Assembly (NCBI GenBank): GCA_027718005.1
Contig: JALLOP010000003.1
Coordinates: forward strand, 1-35,545
DNA length: 35,545 bases
DNA from: Patescibacteria group bacterium AH-259-L07
GTDB taxonomy: Bacteria; Patescibacteriota; Patescibacteriia; UBA2591; UBA6264
Reading direction: 5' to 3'
This document shows positions 6,023 to 35,489 of the stretch, piece by piece. A program made the translations under genes and the position numbers. Below the pieces are notes generated by a model, which saw nothing but the letters and a program-made list of their open reading frames with translations, did no database searches and had not been told where the DNA came from. Each line of letters opens with the position of its first letter. Positions within the stretch are counted from its first letter, which is position 1.

Positions 6023-6152
6023 TTGTTTTTCCTCCTTTGTAAAGAGTGTTTTTACGGTTGAGCATACACCTTGTATGCTCTATTATCTATAGTATGACAG
6101 ATTTTAAAAAAATGTCAACCCCTCGCATCACCCCTTGCATCAAATCATAAAT

Positions 6153-6173
6153 AAAAATCCCTTATGGGATTTA
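6153..6173 (-). terminator. Terminator-like hairpin after the LysM-CHAP gene
   Basis: Minus strand: taaatccc-ataa-gggatttttatttatg. Confidence 0.6.
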
Positions 6174-6203
6174 GTGTAATGCTCACGACTGACGTCGCTT
6201 ACA

Positions 6204-7415
6204 TTACTTTGGGTAAATATAGCCAAGGATTTTCCAGCCGCCTTGCCATACCCCGGTTTTATTTTCAATCGTACGTTGTGAATAGGCACGCGGCTTAATG
6301 CCATTCATTTCTGAAATCGTAATAGTATTTTCATCAAAACTTTCTACATAGGCAACATGACCATAACGGCTGCATAACCAGCTCGTACAGGTCATGGCAA
6401 CAATTGCCCCTTCTCTTGGAGAATTCCCTGTTTCATATCCCGCGCGTTTTGCATTATAATACCAGGATTTTGCATGCCCCCATGAGGGAACGCATTGCCC
6501 CTCTTCATCAGCCCATTGATATGCCACCCAGGAAGTGCATTGTCGGGCAATAAATCTATGACATTTTGAAGTTTTCCACCAATCCCAAAAACCAGAATAA
6601 TCTTCGTTTACAAATACTGGTGTTTGGATTTTTGGTTTCGGGGCGGGAGGAGGAGAGCCATCAGGAATGATAAGAACTTCTCCTGGTTCAAGTATTGAGG
6701 TTATCGTAAGATTATTAAATTGAACAATATTTTCTACAGCGGCCCTATATTTTTGAGCGATAGAAGACAGGGTTTCTCCTGTTTTTACTTTGTGCGTAAT
6801 ACCGTTTGTTGGTAATATTTTCAGCTCATCACCTGGTTTAATAATTGACCAATAACTGAGATTATTTTCCCATAAAACCGTAGACCATTTTAGGCCAAAG
6901 TTTTCAGCAATAGAAGAGATGGTATCACCGGGCTGGACAATATAGGTTTCTATTTCAGATCGTGTTAATGGGGCAGGGTTGTTAAATTCAGTGGCAGGAG
7001 TAATTAATGCTGAATCTTCAAGGCTTAATGCAATTTCACTGATACTTGCCGTATCATCATATTGAAGTGCAGCAATTTCAAAGTCAAGTTGGGCAGTTTT
7101 ATCGATAGCAGCAGTTCCAGATTCAATAATGATTGCTTCATTTTTAGATGCAAAATAGGAAAATAAAGAATATGAAAAGAAAACAAAAGCACCGATAACC
7201 AGAAGTATCGGCAGCTTTTTTTTAAGCAAGGGATGGTTGTAAAATTTTTTTACGTTATTAATCCTTTTTTGTATATAAACATGAGTTAATTGATTGGGTT
7301 GGCTGGGTTGATTTCTTAATTTTTTTTCCACAAAATCTGGGCGGGCTTGTTTTGACAAGCGCTTAATGCTATTATATATTATACTGAATATACTGATAAA
7401 TCGGGATTTTTGCAT
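6204..7415 (-). CDS. Membrane-anchored peptidoglycan hydrolase: TM + 2x LysM + CHAP
   Basis: LPILLVIGAFVFFSYSLFSYF TM segment; LysM repeats YIVQPGDTISSIAENFGLKW and HKVKTGETLSSIAQKYRAAVENIVQFNNL; CHAP CTSWVAYQWADE...GHAKSW...GAIVAM...YGHVAYVES. Confidence 0.9.
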   Translation of the reverse strand: MQKSRFISIFSIIYNSIKRLSKQARPDFVEKKLRNQPSQPNQLTHVYIQKRINNVKKFYNHPLLKKKLPILLVIGAFVFFSYSLFSYFASKNEAIIIESGTAAIDKTAQLDFEIAALQYDDTASISEIALSLEDSALITPATEFNNPAPLTRSEIETYIVQPGDTISSIAENFGLKWSTVLWENNLSYWSIIKPGDELKILPTNGITHKVKTGETLSSIAQKYRAAVENIVQFNNLTITSILEPGEVLIIPDGSPPPAPKPKIQTPVFVNEDYSGFWDWWKTSKCHRFIARQCTSWVAYQWADEEGQCVPSWGHAKSWYYNAKRAGYETGNSPREGAIVAMTCTSWLCSRYGHVAYVESFDENTITISEMNGIKPRAYSQRTIENKTGVWQGGWKILGYIYPK

Positions 7416-26374: not shown

Positions 26375-26487
26375 AGAATGCAGAATGAAGAATGAAGAAT
26401 TGGGGTAGAGCTCATTCATTATTCTAAATTCATCATTCATCATTGAAAATAATTCATCATTCTAAATTCATAATTCATAATTGTAAC

Positions 26488-29400
26488 ATGGCTATTGAAG
26501 TACCAACAACGGAGAAACAAACCTCACCAAAGAAGGCAAAGAAACAAAAAACCCGCCAAGATACAATTACTGCAGAGCAAGTTTTGGTTACAGAAGAGGC
26601 GTATCGTAGAGGGCTGGTGTCTATTCGCGATTTGATTGCCCCGTCTTCGCTGCAGGTTAGTCCTATGTATTTACAGCTTGGCAATCGATATTTGCGAACG
26701 ATTTTTGTAACCACATTCCCTCGATATATTTCAGTTGGCTGGTTTGCTCCCATTATTAATTTTAATGCCTCTTTAGATGTGGCAATGTTTTTCTATCCGG
26801 TTGAGGCAAAAATTGTGCTAAAGCAATTACAAAATCAAGTAGGCAATATTGAAGCACAATTGTCTGAAGAGCATGAAAAAGGCATGCCAAGAGACCCGGT
26901 AAAAGAAACTGCGTTAAAAGATATTGAACGACTACGCGATGAGTTAACAACTGGCGTTGAACATTTTTTCCAATTTTCTCTGTATGTGACCATTTATGCT
27001 AAAGATGAGAAAGAGTTAGATACCTTAACAGAGAAAATAGAAAATTTATTTGCGTCAAAGCTGGTATATACACGCCGGGCATTTTATCAAGCTGAACAAG
27101 GATTTGACTCAACCCTTCCTTTGGCAAATGACAAGATAATGGTTTCCATAAATATTAATTCATCACCTATTGCTTCAAGTTTCCCGTTCATCTCTGCTGA
27201 CCTTACTTCAGATAATGGCATTTTATATGGGATTAATCGGCATAATAATAGTTTGATTTTGTTTGATCGATTTTCCATGCCTAACGCCAATTTCACAATT
27301 TTCGCAAGTTCAGGCAGCGGTAAAAGCTTGACAAAAGACACTCCTGTTTTAGTAAAAGACAAAGGAAATATTCAGCTAATAGAGATCGGTCCTTTGGTTG
27401 AAAAAATAATTAAAAAGCGTGGAGCCGTTCAGATAGAGGATGAAATTGAAGGGGTAGTTGATCCAGGCCTTGAGGTTTATACTTTTAATAAAGAACTGAA
27501 GGGCGAATGGTCAAACGTTACAATTGCGGCGCGAAAAAAAGCGCCAAAAACGTTGTATCAATTTAAAACACAAAGCGGCAGATCAATTACCACCACCGGT
27601 GATCATAATATGTTGGTTTTACGAGAGGGGAAAGTAGTTGCTGACAAGAGTGATAATATTAAAGAAGGAGAATACGTGCCTTTGTCTCGAGAAATTTCTG
27701 GACCAAAAAATCCAACAAAAGACTTTAATCTGCTCACTCTTTTAAAGAATGCATATAACGTATATGTTGATGGTGCACAAGAATTTATACAACAACATTA
27801 TTCTGTTCTAAAGAACGCAAAAATTAATCCTAAGTTTGATAGATATCTATATAAATATCGCCAGCGCAGACGGATTCCATTAAGTTATTTTATGCAGATT
27901 TTACAGTATCTTAGTATAGAACCGGACAAAGAATTATGTCAAAAGGTAAAAGTTTGTTCTCGCAATAATAAAGGGAAAGAAAATACATATTTACCTGCCT
28001 TATTTGAGATTACGCCAGAATTTTTACGCATTTTAGGATATATTATAAGTGAGGGAACGACTGGCGATAAGTATGTTTTGATTACTAACACTAATCCAGA
28101 AGTGCAAGACGATATTAAACTATGCTTGAAGAAGTTAAATATTGCATATAATATTCGGGCAGGCGAAACATTTGCATTTATTGGAAGAGCATTTGTTGAG
28201 CTTATTAAAGCTATAGGAGCATATGGAAAATCAGGGGAAAAAAGGGTGCCGCCATTTATATTTAATCTCTCTAATGAACATATCGCCGAATTCTTAAAAG
28301 CATACTTTGAAGGAGATGGCGGCGTTGAGTCTGCTTCAATCAATGCGACTTCCAAGTCCGCTGACCTTATATCTGATCTTTCATATCTTTTAATGCGACA
28401 TGGTATTGTTTCGCGTTCTGGAGTAAAAAAGAAATGCGCTACCAACACCCTAGATAAAAAGATGAGAAGTTATTGGCATATAAGCATTACAGGACAGAGC
28501 AATTTAAAACAGTTTTTAAATAATATTAATTTTGTTTCTGTTCTTAAGAAGGAAAAGTTAAGAGCGTTGATAGGTAAGAATGAAAATACTAATGTTGATT
28601 TGGTGCCAGGAGTTCAAAATATTTTCAGGGAGGTATATGAATTATTTTCTTTTCAATTACATGGGCTGTCAGATATTAGCAACATCAAGAATGGATTTTA
28701 TAATCCCTCAAGAGATAAACTAAAGGAGCTAATCAAAAAAATTGAACAAAGAATTGAACAATTTAAAGAGTTGGAAAAAAAGTTTGAGATTTTAGAAACA
28801 TTGCCGCAATTATCTTCCATAATTGATACTGGTAAAAATAATAAAGAAATAAATACAGAGCTGTGGAGTAGTTTAGGACATAGTTGGCGATTAATGAAAA
28901 ATAAAGAAATCCGTCCACGTTCAGTAAATGTTTTTAAAGCAGTTAAAATTATTAATGGCGCATTATATTCTTTAACTGATATTAAACAAGCAGTTCATAC
29001 GGGTTTCAAACGAATGAATCTGTCCATAAAGCATTATAAGCATTCACTCAATACCTCGTTAGTTCATAAACCAGAGAGTAATATGCGATATGATATACTT
29101 TATGAAGCAGCCACTTTTGTTCAAGATAATTATCAGAGGATGCTTGAAAGGATTCCCCAAGTCGAAGAGAAATTGCAGCATCTTAAGCTGTTGGCTCATT
29201 CCGATCTATTTTGGGATCCGATTGTTGAGATTAAAAAACTTCAAAATAAAGGTAAATATGTATATGATTTAATGGTTGATAATGAGGTTTTCTTAGCTGG
29301 CCAAAATGGGATGTTTGTTCATAATTCATTTTTCGCTAAATTGGAGGTGCTGCGATCAATGATGATGGGGACTGATGTGATTATTATTGATCCGGAAAAA

Positions 29401-30375
29401 GAGTATAAGCATTTGTCTGATGCGGTAGGCGGGACATATGTAAATATCTCCTTAAGTGCAGACGCAAAATTAAACCCATTTGATTTACCGCGCGCTCAAT
29501 CAAAAGACGTAAAAACCACTGATTTGATTCGATCCGCTGTTATTACGGTAAAGGGATTGCTAAAAATTGCGATCGGGGCTCATATCGGGGAAGGAGTCAA
29601 AGGATTTACGCCGCAGGAAGATTCGTTGCTTGATCGAGCACTTTTAGAAACGTATGCGAAAAAAGATATTATTCCCGGTGCTGATTTATCTAGAGCAGAA
29701 ATGCCTACGATGAGCGATTTGCAGCAGGTTTTAGAAGGCATGGAAGGAGGTGCAGATTTAGCCCAGCGGCTTAAAAAATATACTGAAGGGACCTTTTCTG
29801 GATTTTTAAACCACCCCACGAATGTAAAAATGGATAATCAATTAGTCGCATTTTCAGTACGTGACTTAGAAGATGAACTGCGGCCATTAGCAATTTATAC
29901 TATTGTTAATTATGTGTGGAATACTGTTCGATCAGAGTTAAAAAAGAGAATTTTATTAATTGATGAGGCATGGTGGTTAATGCAAAATGAAGATTCGGCT
30001 AAATTTATCTTTGCATTGGTTAAGCGATGTAGAAAATATTATTTAGGTGTGACGACCATTACCCAAGATGTGGCTGACTTTTTAAACTCTCCCTATGGCC
30101 GCGGCGTTGTGACAAACTCTGCCATGCAATTATTGCTTAAGCAATCTACTGCTGCAATTGAGCAAGTTTCAAAAACATTTATGTTAACTGAGGGTGAGAA
30201 ATATTTGCTTTTGGAGTGCGGCGTAGGAGAAGGTATATTTTTTGCCGGACAAAAGCATGCCGCCATTAAAATTGTTGCATCATATTCTGAAGATCAGTTA
30301 ATTACGTCTGATCCGCAGCAATTGCTAGAAATTGAGCGGTCGAAGCAAGAGTTTGCCGAAAGCCAGGAGGAATAA
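26488..30375 (+). CDS. VirB4/TraC-family T4SS ATPase containing an intein
   Basis: The ORF track begins at 26443, but ATG 26488 (MAIEVPTTEK) is more plausible because 26443-26487 is repeat DNA. Walker A ASSGSGK|S...SFFAKLEVL, Walker B RILLIDEAWWLMQ, TITQDVADFLNSPYGRGVVTNSAMQLLLKQS. Confidence 0.9.
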   Translation: MAIEVPTTEKQTSPKKAKKQKTRQDTITAEQVLVTEEAYRRGLVSIRDLIAPSSLQVSPMYLQLGNRYLRTIFVTTFPRYISVGWFAPIINFNASLDVAMFFYPVEAKIVLKQLQNQVGNIEAQLSEEHEKGMPRDPVKETALKDIERLRDELTTGVEHFFQFSLYVTIYAKDEKELDTLTEKIENLFASKLVYTRRAFYQAEQGFDSTLPLANDKIMVSININSSPIASSFPFISADLTSDNGILYGINRHNNSLILFDRFSMPNANFTIFASSGSGKSLTKDTPVLVKDKGNIQLIEIGPLVEKIIKKRGAVQIEDEIEGVVDPGLEVYTFNKELKGEWSNVTIAARKKAPKTLYQFKTQSGRSITTTGDHNMLVLREGKVVADKSDNIKEGEYVPLSREISGPKNPTKDFNLLTLLKNAYNVYVDGAQEFIQQHYSVLKNAKINPKFDRYLYKYRQRRRIPLSYFMQILQYLSIEPDKELCQKVKVCSRNNKGKENTYLPALFEITPEFLRILGYIISEGTTGDKYVLITNTNPEVQDDIKLCLKKLNIAYNIRAGETFAFIGRAFVELIKAIGAYGKSGEKRVPPFIFNLSNEHIAEFLKAYFEGDGGVESASINATSKSADLISDLSYLLMRHGIVSRSGVKKKCATNTLDKKMRSYWHISITGQSNLKQFLNNINFVSVLKKEKLRALIGKNENTNVDLVPGVQNIFREVYELFSFQLHGLSDISNIKNGFYNPSRDKLKELIKKIEQRIEQFKELEKKFEILETLPQLSSIIDTGKNNKEINTELWSSLGHSWRLMKNKEIRPRSVNVFKAVKIINGALYSLTDIKQAVHTGFKRMNLSIKHYKHSLNTSLVHKPESNMRYDILYEAATFVQDNYQRMLERIPQVEEKLQHLKLLAHSDLFWDPIVEIKKLQNKGKYVYDLMVDNEVFLAGQNGMFVHNSFFAKLEVLRSMMMGTDVIIIDPEKEYKHLSDAVGGTYVNISLSADAKLNPFDLPRAQSKDVKTTDLIRSAVITVKGLLKIAIGAHIGEGVKGFTPQEDSLLDRALLETYAKKDIIPGADLSRAEMPTMSDLQQVLEGMEGGADLAQRLKKYTEGTFSGFLNHPTNVKMDNQLVAFSVRDLEDELRPLAIYTIVNYVWNTVRSELKKRILLIDEAWWLMQNEDSAKFIFALVKRCRKYYLGVTTITQDVADFLNSPYGRGVVTNSAMQLLLKQSTAAIEQVSKTFMLTEGEKYLLLECGVGEGIFFAGQKHAAIKIVASYSEDQLITSDPQQLLEIERSKQEFAESQEE
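27325..29325 (+). mobile_element. Intein with LAGLIDADG homing endonuclease inserted in Walker A
   Basis: Begins SLTKDTPVLV (Ser1) and ends FLAGQNGMFVHN|S. Block B TTGDHNMLVL. Endonuclease motifs LRILGYIISEG and IAEFLKAYFEGDGG. Removal restores GSGKSFFAKLEVL. 2001 nt / 667 aa. Confidence 0.92.
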
Positions 30376-30518
30376 TCCCTCACCCAGAAATTATAATGCT
30401 CAGCATTTTTGTCATGTTCTGGGGAAGGGAAATAAAATTAGAGAAATAAAAGGTTAGAACTAAGTAAATTAATAATTATGCTTCGCATTAAAAAATGCAT
30501 AATTTCTGGGTGAGGGAT
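30375..30518. repeat. 20-bp perfect inverted repeat atccctcacccagaaattat / ataatttctgggtgagggat
   Basis: Arms 30375-30394 and 30499-30518. Inner aattatgc...gcataatt pairing also possible. Right arm runs into the next start codon. Confidence 0.9.
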
Positions 30519-31080
30519 GAAAAAACAAATTTTAACTATAATCATAATTATACTAGCCGGAGTGGTGGTTTTTGCATTAGTTCAGAGCATACGAACAGGT
30601 ATAGTAAGCGAAAAAGGCCCAGTAGGATCTCAAAAAGAAGTTGAAAAACCAGAAGTGCCTAAAGAGACGGAAATGACTGAAGCGCCTGCAGAAGAGGAGG
30701 GGCAAATGCCATCAAAAACAGAATCAGAATTAAAGCTTCAAGCGCGCGCGTTTATACAGACCTATGGTACGTATTCGTCTGACAGCGGCTATGCAAACCT
30801 TGTGGGATTATTAGATTTTATGACTGATAAACTGCGGCAGGAAACACAAGCAAGAATTGACTCTGGTGTTGATAAGTCAGAAGGATTTTTTAGTATCATA
30901 GTTAAGGTGGGGTCAATTGAAACACTAAGCTTTATGTTTGACGCCAGAGCATTATTTACCGCGCAAACACAGGTTCAGGAAATGAAAAAAGGAGAGACAA
31001 AACTTTCTCAGCAAATAGTTGATGTATTGTTTATAAAAGTTGGAGATGATTGGCTGGTAGATGATATCGAATTTAAATAA
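30517..31080 (+). CDS. Single-TM protein, possibly VirB8/NTF2-like
   Basis: MKKQILTIIIIILAGVVVFALVQS TM, acidic linker, then ARAFIQTYGTYSSDSGYANLVGLLDFMTDKL...QIVDVLFIKVGDDWLVDDIEFK. Fold assignment is inference. Confidence 0.6.
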   Translation: MKKQILTIIIIILAGVVVFALVQSIRTGIVSEKGPVGSQKEVEKPEVPKETEMTEAPAEEEGQMPSKTESELKLQARAFIQTYGTYSSDSGYANLVGLLDFMTDKLRQETQARIDSGVDKSEGFFSIIVKVGSIETLSFMFDARALFTAQTQVQEMKKGETKLSQQIVDVLFIKVGDDWLVDDIEFK

Positions 31081-31089
31081 TAAATAGTA

Positions 31090-31114
31090 ATGTTTAAAGC
31101 CGGGCTTTAAACAT
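31090..31114. repeat. Palindrome atgtttaaag-ccggg-ctttaaacat
   Basis: Intergenic member of the GCCNGGC palindrome family, just upstream of the pilin gene. Confidence 0.8.
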
Positions 31115-31119
31115 ATATT

Positions 31120-32511
31120 ATGACTAAAAAGGTATTACTTTTATTAATAATAGCAGTTATTGGTTTTGCATTCGTGGCAATGCCTGTTTTGGCGTTGGGC
31201 CATAAAGAGCCGATAAAGTTTCAGCCGCAGGTGGAGATTCCTGGCTCAAAGTTTAAGCCAGGAGAAGAAATTGTCATTACCAAGGAAGGGACATCATTTG
31301 CTGAGTATCTTTCTGCATTTTTTGATTGGTCAATTCGGGCAATTGTACTTATTGGTGTGGTTATGATTATGGTTGGTGGATTTCAGTGGATGACCGCGGC
31401 AGGGAATGCGCCAAAAGTAGGACAGGCAAAAGCGCGAATTATATCTGCGTTAATCGGCATTGGTCTGGCGCTTGGCTCATATTCCATTTTAAACTTTATT
31501 TCTCCCTCTTTGACGCGGTTGGAGGGGATAAAACTGGGAGAGCCTCTAGGAAGAAAAGAGCTATTGGCGGGATTAAGTGAATCACCGTGTGGTAAATGTG
31601 GAAGTAATGAAATTTGTGTATATGAAGTAGTTGAGATAAGAGGAACAATAAGAGGTGAGTGTAAAGGTGGGCGGTTGATAACTAATGCTTTGCAGTGCGG
31701 CTTCGTGCATGAAACTGCTAATATACGGACTGTAGGGAACAAGTGCAGCATAGGCGAGCAGTGTAGTATAGAAGCTTCTAAAACAAAACTCCTTCCTACA
31801 ACCGACTATAAAGAGGCAAAGTGTTTAAAAGCAGAGACTGTGGCAGGGCAAAGTTGTACAGCAGAAAGAAAGGATGAAAATGGTGCAGTGATTGAGACTA
31901 TAGAGGGAATTTGTATAGATGCTGGCACTGAGGCAAGATATAAGGAATATAAAGAAGGGAAAGTGTCGGGCTATGTGTGTGCGCCAGGTGGATGCGGAGC
32001 AGGCTGGGATATTTGTTGTAGAAATTTGGGACTACAAGATCTTTATGATACTGTGTCTGGTTCGATATCTTACCCTGAAGCCTCTACCCCCATTGAAGAT
32101 TATCCAGATAATAGAAGGGTTAAGAAAGTTAGCCTTGAGGTAAAATCTTATTTACCAAAGTCAGAGGGAGGTGTTTATAGGTATTATGACACTGGTTCAG
32201 GGTATACTACTTATACTAAAGATAAAGATAGATATTCTCTTGATCCAAAAAACGCTATTTCAAGATCAAATATTGATGTAACTAAAGGCGTACAAGGTCT
32301 TTTACGGGTTATAATTCAGGATAAGGGACCCGATGTTGATGATACCTGTTGTATTGGAACAAAGGGGTATAGATTCAAAGATAATACTTTTACGGGAGGG
32401 GAAGCAAGATGCAAAGAAGAAGATGAGGACCTAGGATTGTTTTCCTTGTTTAAAGAAAATAATAAAAGTCAATTGTCCATTGATGTTAATGTATTAAAGT
32501 GCCTTCAATAA
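31120..32511 (+). CDS. VirB2/TrbC-like pilin domain fused to a Cys-rich C-terminal domain
   Basis: Signal peptide plus FFDWSIRAIVLIGVVMIMVGGFQWMTAAGNAPKVGQAKARIISALIGIGLALGSYSILNFISPSL (two-TM pilin-like layout), then ~330 aa with many Cys. Confidence 0.75.
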   Translation: MTKKVLLLLIIAVIGFAFVAMPVLALGHKEPIKFQPQVEIPGSKFKPGEEIVITKEGTSFAEYLSAFFDWSIRAIVLIGVVMIMVGGFQWMTAAGNAPKVGQAKARIISALIGIGLALGSYSILNFISPSLTRLEGIKLGEPLGRKELLAGLSESPCGKCGSNEICVYEVVEIRGTIRGECKGGRLITNALQCGFVHETANIRTVGNKCSIGEQCSIEASKTKLLPTTDYKEAKCLKAETVAGQSCTAERKDENGAVIETIEGICIDAGTEARYKEYKEGKVSGYVCAPGGCGAGWDICCRNLGLQDLYDTVSGSISYPEASTPIEDYPDNRRVKKVSLEVKSYLPKSEGGVYRYYDTGSGYTTYTKDKDRYSLDPKNAISRSNIDVTKGVQGLLRVIIQDKGPDVDDTCCIGTKGYRFKDNTFTGGEARCKEEDEDLGLFSLFKENNKSQLSIDVNVLKCLQ

Positions 32512-32519
32512 AAAGAAAT

Positions 32520-32540
32520 GTTTAACGCTGGGTGTTAAAC
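32520..32540. repeat. Palindrome gtttaacgctgggtgttaaac
   Basis: Intergenic family member upstream of the first HEPN-MNT leader. Confidence 0.75.
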
Positions 32541-32558
32541 GCCCTAAAAAGCTAACAT

Positions 32559-32663
32559 ATGGATAAGAAAAAGTTATTTATCCTGTTAAATAAAATCAAA
32601 GATTTTAGGCCAAAGGCCTATTTAACAGGGTGAATTAGTGATTGGTTTTATTGGAGTGGTCAT
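32559..32663 (+). pseudogene. Truncated copy of the 5' end of the 34191 gene, interrupted by a palindromic insert
   Basis: ATGGATAAGAAAAAGTTATTTATC + insert (cctgttaaata...tatttaacagg) + GTGATTGGTTTTATTGGAGTGGTCAT; 23/26 identical in the last segment to 34191+. Confidence 0.75.
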
Positions 32664-33065
32664 ATGACAAAGAATTTAAAATCTCAAGTTGAATATTGGA
32701 GAAATTCTGCACAACGCAATTGGAAAACTGCGTTAAGTTTGTTTGACTTAAAACATTATGATTCTTGTCTTTTCTTTTGTCATTTAACTTTAGAGAAAGC
32801 TTTAAAAGCATTGGTTGTCCAACAAATAAACAAGCCGGCGCCCTATATTCATGATTTAGCAAAATTATCTGAAATAGCTCAGTTGGAAACATCTGAAGAC
32901 CAGACTCAAAATTTAAGGACTATTACTGGATTTAATATGGCGGCTCGATACGACGATGTAAAACTTTCTTTTTACAAGAGATGCACAAGAGAATATACTC
33001 AAAAGTATTTAGAAATAACAAGAAAATTATACTCATGGTTAAAAAAACAATACCTCAAAAAGTAA
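32664..33065 (+). CDS. HEPN domain protein (module 1)
   Basis: FFCHLTLEKALKALVVQQINKPAPYIHDLAKL...FNMAARYDDVKLSFYKRCTREYTQKYLEI, HEPN (PF05168-like). Confidence 0.88.
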   Translation: MTKNLKSQVEYWRNSAQRNWKTALSLFDLKHYDSCLFFCHLTLEKALKALVVQQINKPAPYIHDLAKLSEIAQLETSEDQTQNLRTITGFNMAARYDDVKLSFYKRCTREYTQKYLEITRKLYSWLKKQYLKK

Positions 33066-33361
33066 AAAATGAGGTTAAGGAATATATTGATGTATTGAGG
33101 GCAGATAAATTGCCGATTACCAAAGCAATTGTATTTGGTTCATACGCGAAAGGCACCCAGCATAAGTGGAGCGATATTGACCTGTGTATTATTTCACCAA
33201 AATTTAAAAATGCATTTAATGCAATGCAATATTTATGGTCAAAACGTATTAAAGATTCAGGATTAACTATTGAGCCGGTTGGATTTAGCCCCAAAGATTT
33301 TAAAGATGATACATCTCTTACCTATGAGATAAAGCAGACAGGGGTAGAATTAAAGATTTAG
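33035..33361 (+). CDS. MNT-type nucleotidyltransferase (module 1)
   Basis: ITKAIVFGSYAKGTQHKWSDIDLCII (GSx10DxD). ORF track start 32981; ATG 33035 more plausible; overlaps the HEPN ORF. Confidence 0.9.
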   Translation: MVKKTIPQKVKNEVKEYIDVLRADKLPITKAIVFGSYAKGTQHKWSDIDLCIISPKFKNAFNAMQYLWSKRIKDSGLTIEPVGFSPKDFKDDTSLTYEIKQTGVELKI

Positions 33362-33372
33362 TTTTTATAAAA

Positions 33373-33413
33373 ATGGATAAGAAGAAATTATTATTTGTTG
33401 GAGTTGTTATATG
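33373..33413 (+). CDS. 13-aa leader ORF MDKKKLLFVGVVI*, truncated copy of the 34191 gene start
   Basis: ATGGATAAGAAGAAATTATTATTTGTTGGAGTTGTTATATGA; stop overlaps the HEPN ATG (ATGA). Confidence 0.6.
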
Positions 33414-33809
33414 ACAAAAAATTTAAAATCTCAAGTTGAATATTGGGTAAAGACATCTCAGCACGATTATAAAACAATGCTTGGCTTGTTTAGAATTAAA
33501 AGATATTCTGATTGTTTGTTCTACGGGCATATAGTTTTGGAAAAGATTCTAAAAGCATTGGTGGTTTATAAAACAAAAAAATATGCGCCCTATACCCATG
33601 ATCTTGTTTATTTAGTCAATTTGGCAGGTCTTAAATTAACAAATAGCCAGTTGAACCTTTTAGATAGGGCTAACCGTTTTAATATCAGAGCAAGATATCC
33701 GGATGCCAGACTTGAATTTTATAAAATTTGCAACAGGAAATACGCAGAGAAGTATTTAAAACAAATCAAAGTTTTATACAAATTTTTATGTCAAAAAATA
33801 AAGCTATAA
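33411..33809 (+). CDS. HEPN domain protein (module 2)
   Basis: Paralog of 32664-33065: MTKNLKSQVEYW start, FYGHIVLEKILKALVVYKTKKYAPYTHDL, FNIRARYPDARLEFYKICNRKYAEKYLK. Confidence 0.88.
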   Translation: MTKNLKSQVEYWVKTSQHDYKTMLGLFRIKRYSDCLFYGHIVLEKILKALVVYKTKKYAPYTHDLVYLVNLAGLKLTNSQLNLLDRANRFNIRARYPDARLEFYKICNRKYAEKYLKQIKVLYKFLCQKIKL

Positions 33810-34099
33810 AATCAGTTAGAAAATATATTGATACGCTTAAGCAAGAAAATTTTCCTTTGAGCGCTGTTTATATTTTCGGCTCGTATGCTAAGGGGAGAGC
33901 ACATTTTGGCAGTGACATTGACGTTGCTATAGTTTCTCCTAAATTAAGAGAAAATTGGGACGAAGTGGAAAGTTGGCTTTGGGAAAAAAGAAGAGGTATA
34001 GATGCGCTCATTGAGCCAGTTGGTTATGCGCCAGAAGATTTTACTGAAGCCGACCCTTTAGTATCCGAAATTAAGGCAACAGGCATAAGAGTATTATAG
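33788..34099 (+). CDS. MNT-type nucleotidyltransferase (module 2)
   Basis: VYIFGSYAKGRAHFGSDIDVAIVSP (GSx10DxD). ORF track start 33728; ATG 33788 more plausible. Confidence 0.9.
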   Translation: MSKNKAIKSVRKYIDTLKQENFPLSAVYIFGSYAKGRAHFGSDIDVAIVSPKLRENWDEVESWLWEKRRGIDALIEPVGYAPEDFTEADPLVSEIKATGIRVL

Positions 34100-34104
34100 A
34101 ACAA

Positions 34105-34128
34105 GTGTTTAAAGCCTGGCGTTAAACA
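34105..34128. repeat. Palindrome gtgtttaaagcctggcgttaaacat
   Basis: Intergenic family member, same relative position upstream of MDKKK as 32520-32540. Confidence 0.7.
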
Positions 34129-34190
34129 TTTATAAATGCAAAATTAATTCATCGCTCATTATTCTGAATTCATAATTCATCATTGTTTTT

Positions 34191-35489
34191 ATGGATAAGA
34201 AAAAGGTATTATTAGTTATCGGATTTATTGGAGTGGTCATTGTGATGGCAGTGCTTTTATATTTTGCGTTTTTTAAACGTCCGCCTGCACCACCCCCCGT
34301 AGTTGTTCCACCGGAGGAAGTAGAAGTAGTGAGACCAGCACGGTTGCCAGTGACACGAGAAATTTGGGAGCGGATGACGATTGAGGAGCGCATTACGCGC
34401 GGCTTGTCTGTATATGAGTTTGAAGAAGAGCGGGCAAAAGAAGTGACCGTGCCGCCAACAATTGAACGGCGCGTTGCACCTCAAATTGACGAGGTAGCGC
34501 AAGGCGGGAGAACCTGGATAAATCCAATATCAAGCGATCCAGTGCAAGGCGCAACCTTAGCTGCAGATGGACAAAATAATGTTTTTTATGATAAAAGTAC
34601 AGGCCAGTTTTATGAGATTGATAGTTTTGGCAATAAAACCTTATTAACTGATCAAGTTTTTTATAATGTAAGTGATGTTAATTGGGCGCCGACTAAAGAT
34701 CGGGCAATTATTGAATATCCTGACGGTTTTAAAGTAATGTATGATTTTGATAAAGATCAGCAATATACCCTGCCAAAAAACTGGGAAGAGTTTTCCTGGG
34801 ACTCAGCTGGCGGAAGAATCGCGTTTAAAGCAATGAGTAAGTATCCTGAAAATACGTGGCTGGCTGTTGCGCGTCCTGACGGATCCGGAGCAAAACCCAT
34901 TGAGCACATGGGAGACAATGCTGATAAAGTTACGGTTTCATGGTCCCCCAATAGTACGATAATTGCATTTTCAGCCACTGGAACACCGCGCGGGACATGG
35001 GAGCAGGAACTTCTTTTAATTGGCCAGCATGGAGAGAATTTTAAACCTTTAGTTGTTGATGGCCGCGGGTTTGAATCACGGTGGGCGCCAGAGGGCGATA
35101 AAATTGCCTATAGTGTATACAGTGCTGATTCTTTATACCAGCCCCGTTTATATATAGCTGGTGCTTCACCAGATAATATTGGAGAAAATAAAATAGCTAC
35201 GGGTTTAGCTACGTGGGCGCATAAATGCGCATTTAATAATGGCGGTTCGTACTTATATTGTGCCGTACCGCAGTTCTTGCCTGAAGGAGCAGGATTGGTT
35301 GCTGAATTGAGCGAAAATACACGCGATGATTTTTATAAGATAAATACTGCTACGGGAGAAGTTTCTTTTTTGGCCGAAGGAGCAATGGGAGGATATAATG
35401 TGCGCGATATGTATGTATCAGGTGATGACTCAGTTCTTTATTTTGTAGATGAAAATACAGAAAGACTAAGGAGCATTCGATTAAAATAA
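34191..35489 (+). CDS. Membrane-anchored TolB/PD40-like beta-propeller protein
   Basis: N-terminal TM MDKKKVLLVIGFIGVVIVMAVLLYFAFF, Pro-rich linker, blade-like repeats VNWAPTKDRAIIEYPDG, FSWDSAGGRIAFKA, VSWSPNSTIIAFSA, SRWAPEGDKIAYSV. Confidence 0.8.
   Translation: MDKKKVLLVIGFIGVVIVMAVLLYFAFFKRPPAPPPVVVPPEEVEVVRPARLPVTREIWERMTIEERITRGLSVYEFEEERAKEVTVPPTIERRVAPQIDEVAQGGRTWINPISSDPVQGATLAADGQNNVFYDKSTGQFYEIDSFGNKTLLTDQVFYNVSDVNWAPTKDRAIIEYPDGFKVMYDFDKDQQYTLPKNWEEFSWDSAGGRIAFKAMSKYPENTWLAVARPDGSGAKPIEHMGDNADKVTVSWSPNSTIIAFSATGTPRGTWEQELLLIGQHGENFKPLVVDGRGFESRWAPEGDKIAYSVYSADSLYQPRLYIAGASPDNIGENKIATGLATWAHKCAFNNGGSYLYCAVPQFLPEGAGLVAELSENTRDDFYKINTATGEVSFLAEGAMGGYNVRDMYVSGDDSVLYFVDENTERLRSIRLK

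Follow-up and report, generated by a model that had tools for sequence, protein, structure and literature searches.

Two HEPN-MNT gene pairs behind repeated copies of a propeller gene's 5' end in a Patescibacteria genome: probable successive insertions with long target duplication

The movement of toxin-antitoxin pairs without transposases is a long-standing open question. The closest described behavior is that of restriction-modification (RM) genes, which insert with a long target duplication of variable length and can then be amplified in tandem (PMC3874152, PMC3031569); the review PMC3874152 credits the description of such target-duplicating insertion to Nobusato et al. 2000 and Furuta et al. 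2010. The gene pair considered here is the one already described as mobile MNT-HEPN two-gene modules, with insertion in one of two related genomes in Deinococcus and Thermus (Makarova et al. 2009, PMC2701414). Neither "target duplication" nor "direct repeat" appears in the text of PMC2701414, and among open-licence PMC papers we found no previous description of HEPN-MNT pairs with target duplication.

Here we describe two such pairs in the metagenome-assembled genome of Patescibacteria group bacterium AH-259-L07 (1,407,351 bases, 75.6% completeness). They form an array on one contig, in the order leader-HEPN1-MNT1-leader-HEPN2-MNT2-propeller, within the analyzed stretch of 35,545 nucleotides (the window). 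Its features are as follows.

31120..32511, + strand: T4SS pilin-domain protein, upstream neighbor (PF18895 T4SS_pilin, E 1.2e-5, slightly under the cut-off)
32520..32540, no strand: GTTTAA..TTAAAC palindrome preceding leader A
32559..32663, + strand: leader A, in which the start of the propeller gene recurs in truncated form, broken up by a double-hairpin element and reaching HEPN-1
32577..32634, no strand: double-hairpin palindromic element of 58 bp within leader A, from a genome family of at least 15
32664..33065, + strand: HEPN-1, putative toxin (PF05168, E 3e-18), 12 initial codons common with HEPN-2
33035..33361, + strand: MNT-1, putative antitoxin nucleotidyltransferase (PF01909, E 4e-13; GSX10DXD by inspection)
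33373..33414, + strand: leader B, MDKKKLLFVGVVI and stop, the stop overlapping the HEPN-2 ATG (ATGA)
33411..33809, + strand: HEPN-2, putative toxin of another clade (PF05168, E 3e-17), sister to the HEPN of G001:C3
33788..34099, + strand: MNT-2, putative antitoxin nucleotidyltransferase (PF01909, E 3.5e-10)
34107..34127, no strand: GTTTAA..TTAAAC palindrome preceding the propeller gene
34191..35489, + strand: propeller gene of the T4SS locus (weak PD40); the leaders derive from its first ~50 nt (copy C) or are sister to them

Between 32511 and 34191 there are HEPN and MNT genes only, with no transposase or integrase gene, and Rfam gave no matches within 30300-34400. In PADLOC the MNT proteins were weakly matched to PDC candidates and the HEPN proteins were unmatched.

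By analogy with RM genes, the layout of the array fits insertion with long target duplication. In both cases a small selfish gene pair is accompanied by a long, variable duplication (of the order of 100 bp) the unit carries no transposase, and tandem amplification may follow; direct repeats of tens to ~100 bp, variable in length, flank the pairs both in the window and at some other HEPN-MNT loci. The present case differs in that the pair is HEPN-MNT in Patescibacteria, that the duplicated piece is the 5' end of a gene turned leader of a toxin gene, and that successive pairs have the leader and the toxin start in common. Elements of the SXT/R391 type, integrating into prfC, replace its 5' end, displacing the original one and leaving a functional gene. 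The displaced 5' end and the retained gene are alike here, but there is no integrase or att site. Integron cassette arrays, which can carry toxin-antitoxin pairs, have the same repeat-cassette-repeat-cassette-repeat layout, whereas the repeats of this array are local, genome-specific sequence and no integrase accompanies it; nor do the loci share an attC-like common core, the flanking repeats varying from one locus to another.

Leaders and the propeller gene's 5' end

The preliminary description placed three related 5' segments ahead of the two HEPN genes and at the start of the propeller gene, and all the features it gave for them are present. The starts at 32559, 33373, and 34191 have in common the 15-mer ATGGATAAGAARAAR, which occurs exactly three times in the 1,407,351 bases, always on one strand and at the starts of this array, with no occurrence on the other strand or in the same-genus genome G001. 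When the genome was searched at the DNA level with the junction region 32634-32702, the other two copies were convincing (E 2e-16 and 2e-5) and the next match had an E-value of 0.08. Since the 15-mer and the junction search match these copies alone, the likeness of the leaders does not reflect a widespread codon habit. Starts of the MDKKK kind are frequent in A-rich genomes, which counts for reading the leaders as an independent small gene or as chance lysine-rich starts; with the 15-mer confined to the array and the match colinear along the whole leader, this reading is very improbable, and coincidental MDKKK starts were rejected.

Both leaders end with GVVI, and their ATA TGA overlaps the HEPN ATG, so that the common stopping codon and the ATGA overlap claimed earlier are seen at both HEPN starts. 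Each HEPN ATG is preceded at 7 nt by GGAG; SD-like motifs were seen at few other starts within the window. Without its 58-bp element leader A reads MDKKKLLVIGFIGVVI. As present it reads MDKKKLFILLNKIKDFRPKAYLTG and stop, its frame being broken and ending ~30 nt short of HEPN-1, and the GVVI frame is re-entered solely via an internal GTG at 32638. The GGAG, the ATGA overlap, and the third-position bias described below make the anatomy compatible with a role of the leader as a captured translation-initiation segment.

Copies A and C are identical at 27 of 30 positions (32634-32663 and 34211-34240). The differences between these two copies had been described as synonymous third-position changes, and this tendency stands, in a somewhat looser form, for all three leaders: among nine substitutions, eight fall at third codon positions (binomial 0.001) and seven are synonymous. 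The leader copies have thus diverged, so the events are either old or proceeded via diverged alleles. The earlier suggestion that these were once translated paralogous starts may hold, but the synonymous differences could equally come from a propeller allele that had diverged in a donor. The cassettes might then have come with a 5' fragment of such an allele from a donor strain already bearing them at this place, the repeats being imported alleles and not a duplicated target. The mostly third-position differences, and a similar case in genome G075 (see below), speak for this scenario, which however leaves the first insertion in the donor unexplained and for which no donor was found; we consider it rather unlikely.

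Ancestry of the two pairs and the course of insertion

In each pair a PF05168 HEPN gene overlaps a PF01909 nucleotidyltransferase gene. Inspection of the translations revealed the catalytic GSX10DXD motif in both MNT proteins (GSYAKGTQHKWSDID and GSYAKGRAHFGSDID), and in both HEPN proteins RY.D....FY in place of the RX4-6H motif, which is absent. We therefore speak of HEPN-MNT gene pairs and do not assert active type VII toxins; the toxin-antitoxin activity of both pairs is presumed.

HEPN-1 and HEPN-2 are 51% identical, and a branch with support 99/95 separates them in a tree that covers 32 HEPN proteins. HEPN-2 clusters with the HEPN of the same-genus genome G001 (98/92; 70% amino acid identity), which starts MSPKDLKEVVQYW and has no leader, while HEPN-1 belongs to a different group; a scan of contigs with HEPN-1 gave no matches. 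Simple tandem duplication of one cassette was rejected, the two HEPN proteins being in separate clades of the tree. At the same time, their initial 36 nt are identical at 35 positions, and identity drops to 57% immediately past a conserved YW. Given this near-identical start and the separate clades, the leader and the 12 initial codons are a single shared 5' module joined to two bodies that differ in descent. The N-termini of outgroup HEPN proteins were not decisive for the original owner of the 12-codon start.

Relatives of the propeller gene were found in 108 of the 116 genomes searched. In the inspected members of the family the propeller gene lies behind T4SS genes, immediately after the pilin gene, with no HEPN-MNT, and no cassette was seen upstream of it in the stretches read from other loci. 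The comparison of related genomes proposed earlier thus finds the cassettes missing at this site in relatives, and the pairs of the window are, judging by these loci, an insertion specific to this lineage. The genome G001 lacks the propeller gene and has only weak paralogues of the pilin gene, hence offers no empty site. A clean single-copy empty site was not found in a close relative; the relatives without the pair have diverged too far for the duplicated piece to be recognizable in single copy, and a scan of contigs with the propeller gene yielded four loci, none informative about the leader.

The separate clades, the cassette-free relatives, and the direct repeats at other HEPN-MNT pairs together argue for recurrent insertion and support the earlier suggestion of repeated integration or duplication at one site. 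With moderate confidence we propose insertion with long target duplication, in which two HEPN-MNT pairs of separate ancestry entered one after the other at the start of the propeller gene in a T4SS operon and the 5' end left behind serves as translation leader. What we infer about the order of insertions, the molecular mechanism, and the translation and function of the leader is the following. The landing site would be duplicated, so that a truncated 5' copy precedes the newcomer and the complete propeller gene survives behind it; the leftover 5' end, with its GGAG and ATGA overlap, would act as the leader. Incoming DNA would probably have been joined by recombination, either illegitimate or assisted by homology.

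The first view of the locus, with each of two cassettes inserted behind a copy of the gene start, holds in that a leader precedes each HEPN gene; the second event must have been less simple, as the shared module extends 12 codons into HEPN. One option is that a new HEPN body entered the resident HEPN at codon 12, duplicating the leader and 12 codons; the observed layout is what would be expected if HEPN-2 had come first, at the propeller start, and the HEPN-1 body had then entered HEPN-2 at codon 12. The other option, which gives an identical layout, is that the leader repeats underwent unequal crossing-over, amplifying the cassette, and that one body was replaced by a foreign HEPN-MNT.

Taken as a full alternative to successive insertion, the latter would start from a single HEPN-MNT insertion amplified by crossing-over between leaders A and C, one body being later replaced via homologous recombination, so that the leader repeats would have given rise to the second cassette instead of resulting from it. 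The middle leader does look hybrid, with upstream GTTTTTAT as in copy C and the downstream HEPN start as in copy A, and RM genes are known for tandem amplification between long target duplications (PMC3031569). However, an extra replacement step ending precisely at codon 12 would be needed, and the spacer behind MNT-1 (11 nt) is unlike that behind MNT-2 (91 nt). We regard this alternative as possible but doubtful.

Flanking repeats at other HEPN-MNT pairs

Flanking repeats were sought at 59 HEPN-MNT pairs from the class and phylum (57 once those of the window are excluded), by aligning the 300 nt preceding HEPN with the 300 nt following MNT on the same strand at a score threshold of at least 35. 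Gene units on the same contigs served as controls, along with the inverted orientation and flanks matched for non-coding content. Direct repeats at this threshold flank 14 of the 57 pairs versus 8 of 369 control units (p=1.8e-8); with non-coding-matched flanks the counts are 13/45 and 7/180 (p=5e-6). In addition, 16 of the 59 pairs exceed all but at most one of 200 dinucleotide shuffles (controls, 7/150).

Such repeats might also be dispersed intergenic repeats or repeated regulatory sequences that flank HEPN-MNT by chance, with the leaders of the window a separate local duplication. Of the 14 positive repeats, about 8 recur as additional partial copies within the region examined, and some control units show this too; such repeats may be dispersed, or spacers of an array. 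Filtering out repeats with further local copies halves the effect, but the excess persists, though in modest numbers: two-copy repeats alone are still over-represented (6/57 pairs versus 2/369 controls, p=1e-4). Direct repeats also far outnumber inverted ones, found at 2 of the 57 pairs, and those in G075 and the window are coding 5' ends. We regard this reading as unlikely.

In G075 a 67-nt repeat is the beginning of pfkB, the gene downstream, and a truncated copy of it is left preceding HEPN, with seven of ten differing codons synonymous. G075 in this respect repeats what is seen in the window, and an HEPN-MNT pair elsewhere does carry the 5' end of a neighboring gene, contrary to the finding that the preliminary description had named as fatal to its proposal. 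In G270 a promoter-like repeat of ~49 nt with TATAAT lies immediately 5' of secA, with a second copy ahead of the inserted genes. Other members of the G270 family show no cassette in the stretches read upstream of secA, and the promoters are too diverged for alignment. Taken together, the flanks suggest that part of the landing site is often duplicated when HEPN-MNT pairs insert.

Two other loci, both on the reverse strand, show further arrangements. At G270:C30 (L171, about 6105-6378) the inserted genes include a frame-broken MNT-like relic, which sits ahead of HEPN and behind the first secA-promoter-like repeat. At G299:C3 (L169, 9894-11763) a related repeat is found before, between, and after two HEPN-MNT pairs, with an extra copy at 7415.

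A broader proposal, which we put forward tentatively, is that HEPN-MNT pairs in Patescibacteria may be self-standing mobile cassettes that need no transposase to land in the 5' regions of genes, duplicate a long target there, stack at one site, and have the toxin driven by the target gene's 5' end or promoter in its duplicated copy. If true, the target duplication would spare the host gene and feed the cassette. The traces left, namely long direct repeats and in some cases the truncated start of a gene, would provide a means to find and date these insertions, and would tie toxin-antitoxin pairs to behavior known for RM genes. In streamlined genomes, a duplicated gene start may become the leader for a toxin gene.

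Palindromic elements and a VirB4-like frame

The palindrome noticed earlier as interrupting the first leader copy is present, but proved to be a member of a dispersed family, and it breaks the leader frame. The family has the layout TTYACCCTGTTAAAT-hairpin-hairpin-ATTTAACAGGGTRAA, and one copy was also found in G001. The RNA of the element region of leader A folds better than its shuffles (z -3.5). Element lengths range over 52-64 bp (52, 58, or 64, each 1 mod 3), and the inner hairpins vary among copies with pairing preserved. They resemble Rickettsia palindromic elements and are found within protein genes, always in one reading frame, where they encode xxPVKS....QFNRV(K/N); the hosts are ribosomal protein S9, ATP synthase delta, TsaE, UPF0102, a SNase homologue, and IS605 OrfB. 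Apart from window positions 32577-32634, the element loci are L066, L067, L069, L072, L141, and L144 of G000 and L065 of G001.

The GTTTAA..TTAAAC palindromes reported before the first and third leader copies are likewise there; they are not particular to these copies, as there are eight genome-wide, including another in the window at 31092. Those of the window (31092, 32520, and 34107) lie 8-12 nt 3' of stop codons.

Upstream of the array, the VirB4-like ATPase frame at 26443-30375 is 1310 aa long, compared with ~630 aa for the frames of its relatives. It appears to contain an intein-like insert directly past the P-loop GSGKS (from GSGKS-LTKDTPVLVKD to VHN-SFFAKLE).
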